A stretch of DNA of 64,000 nt, taken from the NCBI GenBank assembly GCA_020444275.1, contig JAHLLG010000001.1, positions 833,773-897,772 of the forward strand. Direction: 5' to 3'. Both the position numbers and the translations under genes were made by a program. A model generated the notes under the pieces. That model worked only from the letters and a program-made list of their open reading frames with translations, searched no databases and was not told the DNA's origin. Positions 5,077 through 29,605 of the stretch are shown one piece after another (within the stretch, counting starts at the first letter, position 1; each line of letters begins with the position of its first letter). Origin of the DNA: Bacteroidota bacterium (GTDB lineage Bacteria; Bacteroidota; Bacteroidia; Bacteroidales; UBA12077).

Positions 5077-7488
5077 ATGAGAAAAGTATTTTTATTACTA
5101 ATAGCAATAGCATTTTTTACAAGTTTATACGGGCAAAATTACTTTCTTGAAGAAATTCAGAATAGCCCCGCAAATGATATTAAAGAAGGATATCGTTTTC
5201 GCATAACAAATTATCTCGATTCACTGGAGCAGCAAAATGCAGCTAACCAGGTTTTTGATAGTGACTCGGCGCAACGAGCATATTACCAGCAGATAATTGC
5301 CAATATCGATTACAATATAAATTTAGACCCCCAAAATCCGGAAAACTATTTGTTGAAAGGAATTTATAAATCGGCATTATATGAATATGATAGTGCAGAA
5401 ATACTTTTAAACAGAGCAATTGAGCTTAACCCTGATTATGCCGAAGCTTACCTTGAACGAGGCGTCTTATATTTAACTAAATATGAGATCAGAAAAAGCA
5501 TTTCGGATTTTAAGAAAGCATTAAAAATTAATCCTGAATATACCGATGCAATATATAATTTGGGATATGTTTATTTTCAGCAAGGAAAATATAATCAGGC
5601 AAAAAAATACTTTGAGCAAGCCGTTGAAATATATCCATATCACTATCAGTCGTATATTCAGTTAGGTTACTTATATCTCATTGAAAATGATTTTGGAAAC
5701 TCTCTTATAAATTATAACAAAGCAATTGAAATTAAGCCATTCGAACCTACGGGGTATAACCTGCGAGGTCAAATGTATTTATATCAGAATAAGATTGAAG
5801 AGGCAAAAGCTGATTTTAAAAAGAGTATTTCTCTAAATCCATCAAACTATCGAATTATCTTAACCTTAGCCTATGTAGAAATGCAGTTTGGTGATTTGGA
5901 GCACGGAATTGAAATTCTATCTGAAGGTACTCGCATATTGAACAAATTTACATTTTCAAACCGAATTAATGATTATGCCGAAGCGGAAATCAATGATATA
6001 ACTGTGCATTATAAAGAATATACCAAAGGGTATCCAGAGGAAATTAAAACAGTAATTAATCAATGCTTGAAGCTTCTTTTAGAAAATAAGCAGTTATATC
6101 AGGTGCACTTTAAGCTTAAAGAGGTCATAAAAAGGGATAGTACCTTAATATTACCACAACGATTATATATAAACAATTTGTATAAAACAGGCAGAATATA
6201 TGCAAATATTGAGGAGGTAGATGCTTTGTTAGAAAGAGATTCCACACTAGCGTATGTATATGCTTTAAAAGGCGATATTCTTGCAAATATGGACAAGTAC
6301 AGGGAAAGTGTTTTTTACTATGATAAAGCCCTGGAATTGGCTCCGCAATATTCTTATGCATATGCCATGAGAGCATGGTCAAAATACAGGCAGGGAAAAG
6401 TAGAAAGCGCATTTAATGATGTCGAGCAATCCATGAAAAATGTAACTCCATATCTGGCTGCTGTAAATATTAAAGCTGTATTATTAGATGCACTAAATAG
6501 ATATCAGGAATCGCTTGATCTGTATAGTCTTGCAATAAATTATTTTCCCGGGCAGGCGTTTTTATATAATAACAGAGCGCTAACCTATTTAGAAGTTCAT
6601 GATAGAGAAAAAGCACTTGAAGATTGCAATAGGGCCATTGAACTGAGTCCAAATTACTCTGCACCATATAGCATCCGTGGTAATATCTATTTGGATATGG
6701 GCGATTATAAAAAAGCATTAAAAGATTATGACAAAGCCATTGAACTTAATCCGGCCGATAAATATGCTGTGCATACCAAGGCTAATGCTTTGCTCGAAAT
6801 GGATGAATCCGGGCAAGCTATAGATCTTTATCATAAGATGATTAATGAAGGTATTAATGTGCCGGATAATTATCTGGGTTTATCACAAGTTTACTATTCG
6901 TTAGAAAAATATAATGAGTCTGTTAAAAATGCTTCAAAAGCATTGGATTTTGATACTACATATCTAGATGCTTATATTCAAAGGGCAAGAGCAAAATCGG
7001 AAATAGATAAGGTTGAGAGTGCATTAAACGATTTGGATCGTGTATTAAAAATTGACAGTACGCATATTAATGCATTATTCGAAAAATCAAGAATATTTTC
7101 AGATCATGATGAGGTGGAAAAATCAATTCAAACCTTATTACAAATTATCGAAATTGATTCAACTTCGCATGTGGCCTATGGTAATATAGGATGGAACTAT
7201 TACTTGCTTGAAAATTATGAGGAATGCATCAAGTGGTCAGAAAAAGCAATTTCAATTGATAAAGAAGCTCTATATGCCATGTATAATATTGCTTTAGCAT
7301 ATTTGTGTATGGACGATTTTGAAAAATCAAAGAAGCTTTACAAGCAGTATTATCAGCTTAATGTAGAATTAGATGAACCTATTCGCGAAGGGGCAATCCA
7401 GGATTTAAAAGACTTAATCGATAAGGGATCCAAGGTAGATAATGCAAAGTATATCTTAAAAAATATCTTTAATACCAATGATATATAA
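5077..7488 (+). CDS. Secreted tetratricopeptide-repeat protein, 803 aa
   Basis: Signal peptide at residues 1-19 (LLLIAIAFFTSLYG, cleavage near YGQ). Nearly the whole of the mature protein is TPR: many 34-residue units with the consensus W/Y-LG-Y--A/G---A-----P, for example YLLKGIYKSALYEYDSAEIL, YNLGYVYFQQGKYNQAKKYF and AYSIRGNIYLDMGDYKKALKDY-type repeats. A less regular segment (about residues 270-380) separates an N-terminal and a C-terminal TPR block. TPR solenoids are protein-protein interaction scaffolds; here it should be periplasmic. No enzymatic domain is visible. It sits between the small membrane protein and the pentapeptide-type secreted protein, all rightward, which hints at a cell-envelope assembly; partners unknown. 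Confidence 0.85.
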   Translation: MRKVFLLLIAIAFFTSLYGQNYFLEEIQNSPANDIKEGYRFRITNYLDSLEQQNAANQVFDSDSAQRAYYQQIIANIDYNINLDPQNPENYLLKGIYKSALYEYDSAEILLNRAIELNPDYAEAYLERGVLYLTKYEIRKSISDFKKALKINPEYTDAIYNLGYVYFQQGKYNQAKKYFEQAVEIYPYHYQSYIQLGYLYLIENDFGNSLINYNKAIEIKPFEPTGYNLRGQMYLYQNKIEEAKADFKKSISLNPSNYRIILTLAYVEMQFGDLEHGIEILSEGTRILNKFTFSNRINDYAEAEINDITVHYKEYTKGYPEEIKTVINQCLKLLLENKQLYQVHFKLKEVIKRDSTLILPQRLYINNLYKTGRIYANIEEVDALLERDSTLAYVYALKGDILANMDKYRESVFYYDKALELAPQYSYAYAMRAWSKYRQGKVESAFNDVEQSMKNVTPYLAAVNIKAVLLDALNRYQESLDLYSLAINYFPGQAFLYNNRALTYLEVHDREKALEDCNRAIELSPNYSAPYSIRGNIYLDMGDYKKALKDYDKAIELNPADKYAVHTKANALLEMDESGQAIDLYHKMINEGINVPDNYLGLSQVYYSLEKYNESVKNASKALDFDTTYLDAYIQRARAKSEIDKVESALNDLDRVLKIDSTHINALFEKSRIFSDHDEVEKSIQTLLQIIEIDSTSHVAYGNIGWNYYLLENYEECIKWSEKAISIDKEALYAMYNIALAYLCMDDFEKSKKLYKQYYQLNVELDEPIREGAIQDLKDLIDKGSKVDNAKYILKNIFNTNDI

Positions 7489-26695: not shown

Positions 26696-27532
26696 ATGTA
26701 TAAAACCGTTTGGAATAAATGTCAGCGTTCTGTTTGCCAGCTAAGTTTCTATAGTTCGGCAGGTATTAAGCTTTTATCGATGACCGGATTTAAAGTAAAT
26801 GGACACTTTTTAATTACAGATGACTATTTATTTAAAATTTCAAAGGCGGTTAAGGTAAAATTGCGTTTTGTTGGCCCCGATGGATACTCAGAAAATTCAA
26901 GTGTTGAGTTGTCTATGAGTGAGTTAAAACAAAGAATTATAAAAGGCATTCATAAAGAAAAAACACCTTTTGCTACAATTAATATCGATTTTAAAGAGTT
27001 TGATAAAATTCCGTCTTTGAAGCTTAGTACGAAAAAGGAGGTAGCTATTGGATCGGAGATCGCTATTTTAGGATACCAACTAGACAAAGATAATTTAGCG
27101 ATTAAATCAGGAATAATTGCGTCATCATTTATAAACGGAAATGATAAAAAATATTTCCAGGTGGATTCCAGCCTTAAACAAGGTAACTCTGGTAGTCCGC
27201 TAATCAATGCAGAAACTGGAGAAGTTATTGGTGTAATAGGTCATAAACTGGCTTCAATTACTCAATCGCATAAACGAATGAAGCAAATAATAAATAATAA
27301 TTTGGCTATTCTTAAAAAGTCGCAGGGAAAATTTAATGTTGAAGAAATAGACCCAATCCAGGTATTAATTGCCAATCAAAATCAGATTAAACATATATCT
27401 AACGAAATATACAAGACTGCTACCATGACAAACGGGTACGCATTGGATATTTCTTATATAAATGATCTTTTCGAAGAGTTCATCGATGCCGAAGTTTCAC
27501 AATCTTCACAGAAATTTCACATTGATGCATAG
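26696..27532 (+). CDS. Trypsin-fold (Trypsin_2-like) protein lacking the catalytic His
   Basis: 278 residues, no signal peptide, so cytoplasmic. The serine-protease nucleophile region is intact: FQVDSSLKQGNSGSPLINAETGEVIGVIGHK with S166 in GNSGSP. At the place where the family has T-N-x-H-V, the text reads LITDDYLF (39-46), so the catalytic His is replaced by Tyr44. The Asp motif (usually DxALLK) is also not recognisable in FATINIDFKEF. C-terminal 70 residues form an extra helical extension (PIQVLIANQNQIKHISNEIYK). It could be a pseudoprotease binding peptides, or use an unusual mechanism. First real clue to partners: two small genes just upstream. Confidence 0.72.
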   Translation: MYKTVWNKCQRSVCQLSFYSSAGIKLLSMTGFKVNGHFLITDDYLFKISKAVKVKLRFVGPDGYSENSSVELSMSELKQRIIKGIHKEKTPFATINIDFKEFDKIPSLKLSTKKEVAIGSEIAILGYQLDKDNLAIKSGIIASSFINGNDKKYFQVDSSLKQGNSGSPLINAETGEVIGVIGHKLASITQSHKRMKQIINNNLAILKKSQGKFNVEEIDPIQVLIANQNQIKHISNEIYKTATMTNGYALDISYINDLFEEFIDAEVSQSSQKFHIDA

Positions 27533-27558: not shown

Positions 27559-27590
27559 AAAGAGCCGCTCCAAGTGAGTGGCTCTTTTTT
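27559..27590 (+). terminator. Rho-independent terminator after the trypsin-fold gene
   Basis: AAGAGCC-GCTC pairs with GAGT-GGCTCTT around loop CAAGT, with six or more T. Ends the 26221-27532 unit. Confidence 0.82.
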
Positions 27591-27646
27591 ATTATTTTTA
27601 AAAAAGAAAGTTTCTCAAATAACTTTTGATGATATGAATTGTTTGT

Positions 27647-27654
27647 AATTTTGT
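27647..27654 (+). promoter_or_regulatory. -7 promoter element before the cNMP-aspartase gene
   Basis: TAATTTTG matches TAnnTTTG, 31 bp before the ATG at 27686. A TTTG lies 17 bp upstream (27626-27629), slightly short of consensus spacing. Confidence 0.4.
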
Positions 27655-27685: not shown

Positions 27686-29545
27686 ATGGATATTGAAAAA
27701 GTTAATTTATTTATTAAAGAAATAGAACTTTTTAAGGGGTTGTCCGAAAAAGAGTTTGAAGTCTTAGCACAAAATATTGTAGAAAAAAAGTATAAAAAGG
27801 GAGAGTTGCTTTTTGAAGAGAACGGACCTCGTAAGGATATTTTTATCATTTATAAAGGTGAGGTAGAACTTTTTAAATCGGTTCACTTTGGAGCAGAAAC
27901 AAGGCTGTCGTATTTTAGTAAAGGTGATTTCCTGGGAGAGGGATCCTGGGCTAATGACTCTCCGCACTCAACCTCGGCAAGAGCTAAAACAGAAACTATA
28001 GTTTTTAGTATTAACAGAAAGTTTTTTGATGAAAATGGACCTGCAGCGGTTAAAATATTTAGCAATATTGCCCGGGTTATTTCAAGAAGAATGCGTCATG
28101 CTAATAATAGAATGATTAATGTTGCTGCTCAGTATGAATCGGGGCGAACAAGAAAAGAACACGATTTATTGGGTGATCGTGAAGTGCCTAATGAATATTT
28201 ATATGGTGTACAAACATTAAGAGCTTTAGAAAATTTTAACATCAGTGGAATAACCTTGAACTTTTTTCCGGTAATTATTCAGTCACTGGCAATGGTTAAA
28301 CTGGCTGCTGCTAAGACTAATGCTGAGTTGGGTTTACTTGAAAACTCATTAAGCAATGCAATAATACGTGCGTGCAATGAGATAATTAATGGCAAATATC
28401 ATAATCATTTTATTGTCGATATGATCCAGGGTGGAGCAGGTACATCAACTAATATGAATGCTAATGAGGTAATTGCTAACAGGGCACTTGAAATTTTAGG
28501 GTATGAAAGAGGTCAGTATGAGTTTTGTCATCCGAATAACCATGTTAACCTTTCACAATCGACAAATGATGCTTACCCAACGGCAATTAAGATTGCTTTA
28601 ATCAAGAGTAATGAAAAACTGATTAATGTGCTAAAAGATTTGGTGGAATCGTTTTATAATAAAGCAAAAGAGTTTGCTCATATTATAAAAATGGGGAGAA
28701 CACAATTGCAAGATGCTGTACCAATGACTCTGGGACAATCTTTTGAAGCTTATGCAGTAACCCTTGAAGAAGAAATAGAAAGATTGCAGCAAAATGCTAA
28801 TCTGTTTTTAGAAATAAATATGGGAGCAACAGCTATTGGAACCGGAATCAACTCAGATCCTGAATATGCAGATAAAGTGGTAAAACATCTTCAAAAGATA
28901 GCCGGATTAAAAGTTATAAATGCTAAAAATCTGGTGGAGGCCACTCAGGATACCGGTGCCTTTGTGATGTACTCATCGGCATTAAAACGACTTTCAGTAA
29001 AATTATCGAAAATATCTAACGATTTAAGGTTGTTATCATCTGGTCCAAGAACCGGTATCAATGAGATTAATTTGCCTCCTATGCAACCAGGTTCATCCAT
29101 AATGCCTGGTAAAGTAAATCCGGTAATTCCGGAGGTGGTGAATCAAATTGCGTTTAAAGTTATTGGTAACGACCTGACTGTAACTATGGGGGCAGAAGCT
29201 GGGCAGTTAGAACTGAATGTTATGGAACCTGTTATAGTTCAAAGTATTTTTGAATCGATTGAAATGCTTAGTAACGGAATGAAAACCTTTAAATATCGTT
29301 GTGTTGATGGAATAAAAGCCAATGAAAAACGATGTAAGGAAATGGTACAAAATAGTATTGGAATTGTTACTGCACTTAATCCGGTACTTGGATATGAAAC
29401 ATGCTCAAGTTTGGCAAAAGAGGCTTTAAATAAAGAGTTAAGTGTTTACGATTTGGTTATTGAAAAGGGAATTCTTTCCAAAGCGAAACTGGACACTTTG
29501 CTTATGCCCGAAAATATGATTAAACCACAAAAAATGAAGAGGTAA
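27686..29545 (+). CDS. aspA: Aspartate ammonia-lyase fused to an N-terminal cyclic-nucleotide-binding-like domain
   Basis: 619 residues. Residues 1-150: cNMP-binding/CRP-like beta-roll (LFKGLSEKEFEVLAQNIVEKKYKKGELLFEENGPRKDIFIIYKGEVELF) with the GE of the phosphate cassette (GDFLGEGSW, 81-88). Aligned by eye with CRP (RSAWVRAKT), the phosphate-binding Arg is His94 (HSTSARAKT), so classic cAMP binding is doubtful. Residues about 155-619: full aspartase, including EHDLLGDREVPNEYLYGVQTLRA, GGAGTSTNMN, STNDAYPT, MGRTQLQDAVPMTLGQ and the lyase signature GSSIMPGKVNP. Reaction: L-aspartate to fumarate plus ammonia. The fusion suggests allosteric control of aspartate catabolism by a nucleotide or other small ligand. 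Monogenic, between two terminators. Confidence 0.93.
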   Translation: MDIEKVNLFIKEIELFKGLSEKEFEVLAQNIVEKKYKKGELLFEENGPRKDIFIIYKGEVELFKSVHFGAETRLSYFSKGDFLGEGSWANDSPHSTSARAKTETIVFSINRKFFDENGPAAVKIFSNIARVISRRMRHANNRMINVAAQYESGRTRKEHDLLGDREVPNEYLYGVQTLRALENFNISGITLNFFPVIIQSLAMVKLAAAKTNAELGLLENSLSNAIIRACNEIINGKYHNHFIVDMIQGGAGTSTNMNANEVIANRALEILGYERGQYEFCHPNNHVNLSQSTNDAYPTAIKIALIKSNEKLINVLKDLVESFYNKAKEFAHIIKMGRTQLQDAVPMTLGQSFEAYAVTLEEEIERLQQNANLFLEINMGATAIGTGINSDPEYADKVVKHLQKIAGLKVINAKNLVEATQDTGAFVMYSSALKRLSVKLSKISNDLRLLSSGPRTGINEINLPPMQPGSSIMPGKVNPVIPEVVNQIAFKVIGNDLTVTMGAEAGQLELNVMEPVIVQSIFESIEMLSNGMKTFKYRCVDGIKANEKRCKEMVQNSIGIVTALNPVLGYETCSSLAKEALNKELSVYDLVIEKGILSKAKLDTLLMPENMIKPQKMKR

Positions 29546-29566: not shown

Positions 29567-29605
29567 TAAAACAGTTTGAAAGTTTACTTTTCAAACTGTT
29601 TTTTG
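29567..29605. terminator. Bidirectional terminator between aspA and xseB
   Basis: AAACAGTTTGAAAGT pairs with ACTTTTCAAACTGTTT (about 14 bp, one bulge) with A-runs and T-runs on both sides; it serves both convergent genes. Confidence 0.85.

Follow-up and report, generated by a model that had tools for sequence, protein, structure and literature searches.

A cyclic nucleotide-binding domain with an altered ligand pocket fused to aspartase in Bacteroidota

How Bacteroidota use cyclic nucleotides as signals is poorly understood. Bacterial fusions of cyclic nucleotide-binding domains (CNBDs) with enzymes exist, for example the mycobacterial CNBD-acetyltransferase, and in them the CNBD provides allosteric control of a metabolic or modifying enzyme. 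The CNBD-aspartase fusion analyzed here differs from these proteins both in the enzyme and in its non-canonical pocket. CNBDs of the CRP/GlxR and PKA/PKG types carry the phosphate-binding Arg and a Gly in the beta2,3-loop, where the fusion has His and Arg, respectively; their output is DNA binding, a kinase or a channel, while the output of the fusion is an enzyme. In the regulatory subunit of trypanosomatid PKA the Arg of the phosphate-binding cassette (PBC) is likewise replaced, according to PMC10959531.

On the enzyme side, AspA (TIGR00839; structures 6wng, 3r6v, 1jsw) shares with the fusion the full catalytic part, the signature loop and the invariant residues, 6wng being 62% identical to the catalytic part over 463 residues, while the fusion has about 155 extra residues at the N-terminus. 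No lyase among the best 60 of 187 PDB sequence matches spans a CNBD. A literature search, with some candidates judged by title or the start of the abstract, found no publication on a CNBD-aspartase fusion; automatic annotation of this architecture in UniProt/InterPro is likely.

Domain composition and translation start

The fusion gene occupies positions 27686..29545 on the forward strand of the window (the whole analyzed stretch of DNA, 64,000 nucleotides) and is a single uninterrupted open reading frame encoding 619 aa, with domains assigned by Pfam and NCBIfam. Its parts and the flanking hairpins and promoter-like element described below are given on the same strand. All three Pfam matches exceed the gathering scores: cNMP_binding, comprising the beta-roll and the PBC (residues 34-115, 27785..28030, 59.5 bits, E 3.1e-16), Lyase_1 (residues 164-494, 28175..29167, E 1.4e-99) and FumaraseC_C (residues 560-613, 29363..29524, E 3.1e-19). 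The preliminary description had assigned the first 150 or so residues to the cNMP family and the remainder to a complete aspartase, and both assignments hold. For the N-terminal domain, membership of the CNBD superfamily (PF00027) follows from the profile match and also from the CNBD fold, seen when this domain was modelled by AlphaFold2. It was folded alone because the fold search with the full-length model yielded only lyases among the 50 matches listed.

The aspartase part scores 725.3 bits against the aspA profile TIGR00839 (cut-off 681.2) and contains the signature loop GSSIMPGKVNP (residues 469-479, 29090..29122, identified in the sequence). Ser470 and Lys476 of this loop, which we take to be the catalytic residues, are invariant in the 50 homologues analyzed, and the fusion is predicted to convert aspartate to fumarate and ammonia. 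Of four genes of the source genome matching TIGR00839, it is the sole one above the cut-off. TIGR00979 (777 bits) identifies one paralogue as a fumarase, which passes the broader NF008909 as well, two other lyase paralogues lie under the aspartase cut-offs, and a further one is PurB; other genes of this genome may thus contribute some aspartase activity.

The preliminary description had also considered a start codon near residue 150, with its own ribosome site, giving a normal aspartase. Inner start codons do exist: ATG at Met136 is present in 45/50 homologues and at Met143 in 10/50. No Shine-Dalgarno-like motif, however, precedes the start codons in residues 130-155 in any of the 50 homologues. 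Bacteroidota seldom rely on such motifs, and therefore an additional short product may still be made. That a plain aspartase initiated at Met136 or Met143 is the functional form, with the long one minor or an effect of annotation, is nevertheless very improbable. Met136 belongs to ISRRM, a conserved part of the C-helix, and this explains its frequency; the window frame has no internal stop. Moreover, when 25 frames were taken from stop to stop, so that the start was not chosen, 21 had a Met aligned with Met1 (read by eye); the near-invariance of Met1 in the homologues partly follows from the chosen starts and was not counted. Purifying selection acts throughout the CNBD (pN 0.14 vs pS 0.95 in a congeneric pair), with dN/dS for both domains obtainable in 2/8 pairs only, because synonymous sites were saturated.

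The gene is flanked by terminator-like hairpins, one before it with a 12-pair stem and a T tail (27559..27587) and one behind it with a 15-pair stem (29568..29602), in a region with four such sites against 1.2 expected; hence it is probably transcribed alone. A weak promoter-like element TTTG-N17-TAATTTTG (27625..27653), which resembles what we take to be the Bacteroidota promoter consensus, belongs to a pattern found six times in the window vs 4.1 by chance, that is, not above chance. Neighbours were compared at 72 loci (the window included, up to four open reading frames per side). The commonest were a histidine kinase with TPRs, identified by reading its sequence (24 loci), and a Trypsin_2 peptidase (22 loci). 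They were taken as synteny among close relatives, and the idea that a conserved operon partner might reveal the function was rejected. The trypsin-like peptidase gene directly upstream of the fusion in the window (26696-27532), with relatives in 22/72 loci, likewise reflects local synteny only.

Distribution and phylogeny of the fusion

The order sample comprised 149 genomes from more than 100 families. The full-length fusion is found in 32 of them (the source genome counted), while a plain aspartase of the same type (E 1e-140 or better) is found in 13 others. In the phylum sample the fusion is present in 21/395 genomes, again with the source genome counted, and the plain form in 34. The preliminary description had called aspartase normally a single-domain enzyme and proposed to compare how common the fusion is; the form without the CNBD indeed exists, but the fusion is no rarity. 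Since plain forms are also found in both samples, it is a common variant in Bacteroidota. An accident of frame or assembly as its origin was ruled out, because 52 sampled genomes (the source genome included) and loci of named records share this architecture. One carrier is an isolate, Perlabentimonas gracilis strain M08_MB (L101). The fusion is real; it is widespread and subject to selection.

The named records come from a scan of contigs for relatives of the CNBD, which found 233 loci, the best 80 of which were retained. Four of these 80 were unreadable by the motif search; in the remaining 76 the frame always continues into the lyase, reaching the MPGK motif in 74 and ending at the contig end before it in two. 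The best 80 of 233 records bear titles such as Bacteroidales, Bacteroidetes, Ignavibacteriaceae and Melioribacter. Two Bacteroidota-like fusions stand under other phylum names, Alphaproteobacteria (L106) and Desulfobacteraceae (L144), and these contigs are probably mis-binned. The CNBD alone has relatives in 272 plasmid records, all below 60% identity; the best 10 of these 272 are nine Crp/Fnr regulators and one CNBD protein, 27-30% identical.

In the tree of aspartase domains (FastTree, rooted with two lyases of the source genome), a single clade (support 0.971) unites the 50 fused proteins, and none of the 23 plain aspartases falls inside it; two of the 52 fused rows (L061, L179) had been dropped by the motif filter. 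Two of the nearest plain aspartases (L165, L166) have SGKTR ahead of the catalytic part, like the linker of the fusion, and therefore either the CNBD was lost there or the linker arose first. More generally, an SG(K/R)TR stretch resembling this linker occurs in four plain aspartases (L165, L166, L169, L176), as possible relics of a lost CNBD. In another plain aspartase (L075, G205:C1:1775892-1777397) the match to the fusion extends upstream across stop codons to residue 117, possibly a decayed remnant, or chance. A 510-aa plain aspartase-like frame (L177, in genome G049) begins with an apparent signal peptide, LLAFLTLGSTVSTAWAQ, ahead of its catalytic part, which suggests that this distant lyase is an exported enzyme.

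The ligand pocket

Pocket residues were counted in 50 homologues, from 50 of the 52 genomes with the fusion and with CNBD identity down to 34%; rows of the contig scan were excluded from the count of His94, because the scan patterns contain the His motif. In canonical CNBDs Glu of the GE motif contacts the ribose. This motif is retained as Gly84-Glu85 (Glu85, 27938..27940), with Gly in 44 and Glu in all of the 50 aligned homologues. The position of the cyclic-phosphate Arg is occupied by His94 (27965..27967), a replacement noted in the preliminary description and confirmed by alignment with the Plasmodium PKG CNBD; it is family-wide (49/50) and no quirk of a single gene, the only exception being Tyr in one homologue (L023). 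Gly, the residue that predominates in canonical CNBDs at position 7 of the beta2,3-loop, is absent as well: the residue aligned with the Gly of the Plasmodium PKG CNBD is Arg49 (27830..27832), in 50/50 homologues, while Gly here is no strict mark (4/11 control rows with canonical Glu and Arg). Ser95 is found in 47/50, Thr96 in 49/50, Arg135 in 50/50 and Asn140 in 40/50 homologues.

In the structural survey PMC2275311, Gly169 in the beta2,3-loop of PKA RI-alpha (position 7) is described as packing directly against the phosphate Arg, Arg209, and a side chain larger than Gly at position 7 is said to clash with Ala202 of the PBC. On this description the fusion family has altered both members of a contacting pair, a coherent change, and Arg49, being larger than Gly, makes the canonical cAMP-bound state unlikely.

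The control panel of CNBDs from the order was picked, not random (14 rows from the source genome, 29 best matches and 40 chosen rows, fused frames excluded); 78 of its 83 loci were aligned, one being that of the window and the distant ones aligned roughly. Arg at position 49 is found in none of the 77 other aligned CNBDs. His at position 94 is found in 12 of them, none of which has the Glu, and canonical Glu and Arg together in 11. The source genome itself has two CNBDs with canonical Glu and Arg; one such domain in this genome (L038, C9:768360) forms a fusion with a HisKA-HATPase histidine kinase.

These data bear on the possibility that the CNBD has ceased to bind a ligand and instead has a role in structure or assembly, or lets a partner protein dock. 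The key Arg of the PBC is gone, and non-canonical pockets are common, with 66 of the 78 panel rows lacking this Arg; moreover, Gly of the GE motif is lost in four of the seven fused rows of one family (f150). On the other hand, Arg49, Glu85, His94, Ser95 and Thr96 are among the most conserved residues of the domain, and this is more than a mere scaffold would need. In the panel Glu mostly accompanies Arg (of the 14 rows that have Glu, 11 also have Arg, the remaining three being the window protein with His, one row with Gln and one with Leu), so retention of Glu85 also speaks against a ligand-free domain, which we consider quite unlikely.

A non-cyclic ligand, for instance AMP or a further linear nucleotide, a nucleoside or some other phosphorylated metabolite, is a somewhat better candidate, though still doubtful; the pocket would then have departed from cAMP in evolution, and the domain would respond directly to the energy or nitrogen state. 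The replacement of Arg by His in 49/50 homologues together with the new invariant Arg49 fits it, as does the clash of a large loop residue in the canonical bound state reported in PMC2275311. PMC10959531 reports that trypanosomatid PKA CNBDs, with the same Arg replaced, bind purine nucleosides, a Glu at the equivalent of Ala202 binding the 3' and 5' OH of the ribose. The fusion lacks this Glu, having Ser87 in the window protein and Ser (30), Ala (16), Val (2), Phe (1) or Gly (1) in the 50 homologues. With Ser or Ala in 46/50, a nucleoside pocket of the trypanosomatid type was ruled out, and the missing Glu counts against a non-cyclic ligand.

Cyclase co-occurrence and predicted coupling

Genomes with the fusion frequently encode class III cyclases (PF00211), five matches being found in the source genome. 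In the order, 29/32 genomes with the fusion have them, compared to 1/13 with the plain aspartase (Fisher p 1.9e-7) and to 62/117 of all others (p 6.8e-5), where these p-values, like the one below, are not corrected for relatedness or genome size. PF00211 is also present in 61/104 genomes that lack both kinds of aspartase, and therefore much of the contrast reflects how seldom plain carriers have it. In the phylum sample (the source genome excluded) the proportions are 14/20 with the fusion and 12/34 with the plain form (p 0.023), against a background of 205/395. The association inside the order is a second argument against a non-cyclic ligand.

At the default threshold no PF00211 match was found in nine of the 52 genomes with the fusion, namely G051, G100, G092 and six of the seven f150 genomes; a loose threshold gave only matches below the cut-off, the best being E 0.002 in G100, 0.055 in G461 and 0.19 in G051. 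Class I cyclases were found in none of 12 genomes checked and a CYTH gene in one of them, G100. Thus in six f150 genomes, 98-100% complete, no class I, III or IV cyclase was detected, which favours a non-cyclic ligand, while their fusions still keep Arg49, Glu85 and His94. Hence the f150 lineages rely either on another ligand or on an unrecognized cyclase, or have a decaying pocket, and genomes of this kind would point to a novel ligand or a novel cyclase. The preliminary description allowed for a ligand other than cAMP; this is reasonable, and these six near-complete genomes and the invariant Arg49 strengthen it.

The best explanation, which we hold to be about evenly balanced between right and wrong, is an allosteric aspartase whose N-terminal CNBD binds a ribose-containing ligand in a re-wired pocket. 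The observed features behind it are the fusion itself, its spread, the single clade, a pocket whose alterations are conserved, a linker of fixed length and the association with class III cyclases. In particular, Arg49, Glu85, His94, Thr96, Arg135, Gln149, Tyr150 and Arg156 are invariant or near-invariant in the 50 homologues, and the residue in position 87 is small, unlike the Glu of nucleoside-binding CNBDs; what counts against this explanation is that the Arg of the phosphate site, considered key to the response to cyclic nucleotides, is missing. The ligand would be small and probably phosphorylated, with Glu85 holding its ribose, while Arg49 and His94 would jointly stand in for the usual Arg; in most carriers it would likeliest be a cyclic mononucleotide (cAMP or cGMP). 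Ligand binding, the identity of the ligand, the direction of the effect and the geometry of the tetramer are the inferred parts of this explanation.

The path from the pocket to the active sites would lead through the C-helix (residues 118-149, 28037..28132, as modelled by AlphaFold2 from residues 1-157, with a mean pLDDT of 87.4; residues 118-139 in the full-length model). Comparison of the 50 homologues reveals a conserved linker behind it (residues 140-157, 28103..28156). The spacing between Arg135 and Glu158 is 24 residues in 50/50 homologues, and Gln149, Tyr150 and Arg156 are invariant in this region, so that the CNBD resembles a coupled sensor rather than a tether. Binding of the ligand would shift the C-helix, and this movement may be transmitted by the linker of fixed length to the first beta-hairpin of the aspartase and further to the active sites of the tetramer.

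Judging from sequence, the activity of the enzyme is probably controlled by a small signal molecule, and direct nucleotide control of the flux from aspartate to fumarate, proposed in the preliminary description, is plausible. If so, a sensor domain acts directly on a central anaerobic step of carbon and nitrogen metabolism, without transcription. More tentatively, and with somewhat less than even confidence, the family may represent a new class of CNBDs, in which the phosphate Arg has moved to the beta2,3-loop (Arg49 with His94) and the flux is controlled by a nucleotide-like ligand, possibly non-cyclic, because some carriers have no recognized cyclase. The conserved pair of Arg49 and His94 offers a clean, testable model of a CNBD pocket changing its ligand.

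Two other cyclase genes were observed. In the source genome a protein composed of a response regulator, PAS and a class III cyclase is encoded at C7:902829-903377, about 5 kb beyond the window end and about 39 kb downstream of the fusion gene. In another genome (L232, G027:C109) a frame of 376 residues appears to contain a CNBD (5421-5666) followed by a class III cyclase domain (5799-6353), possibly forming a self-sensing cyclase.
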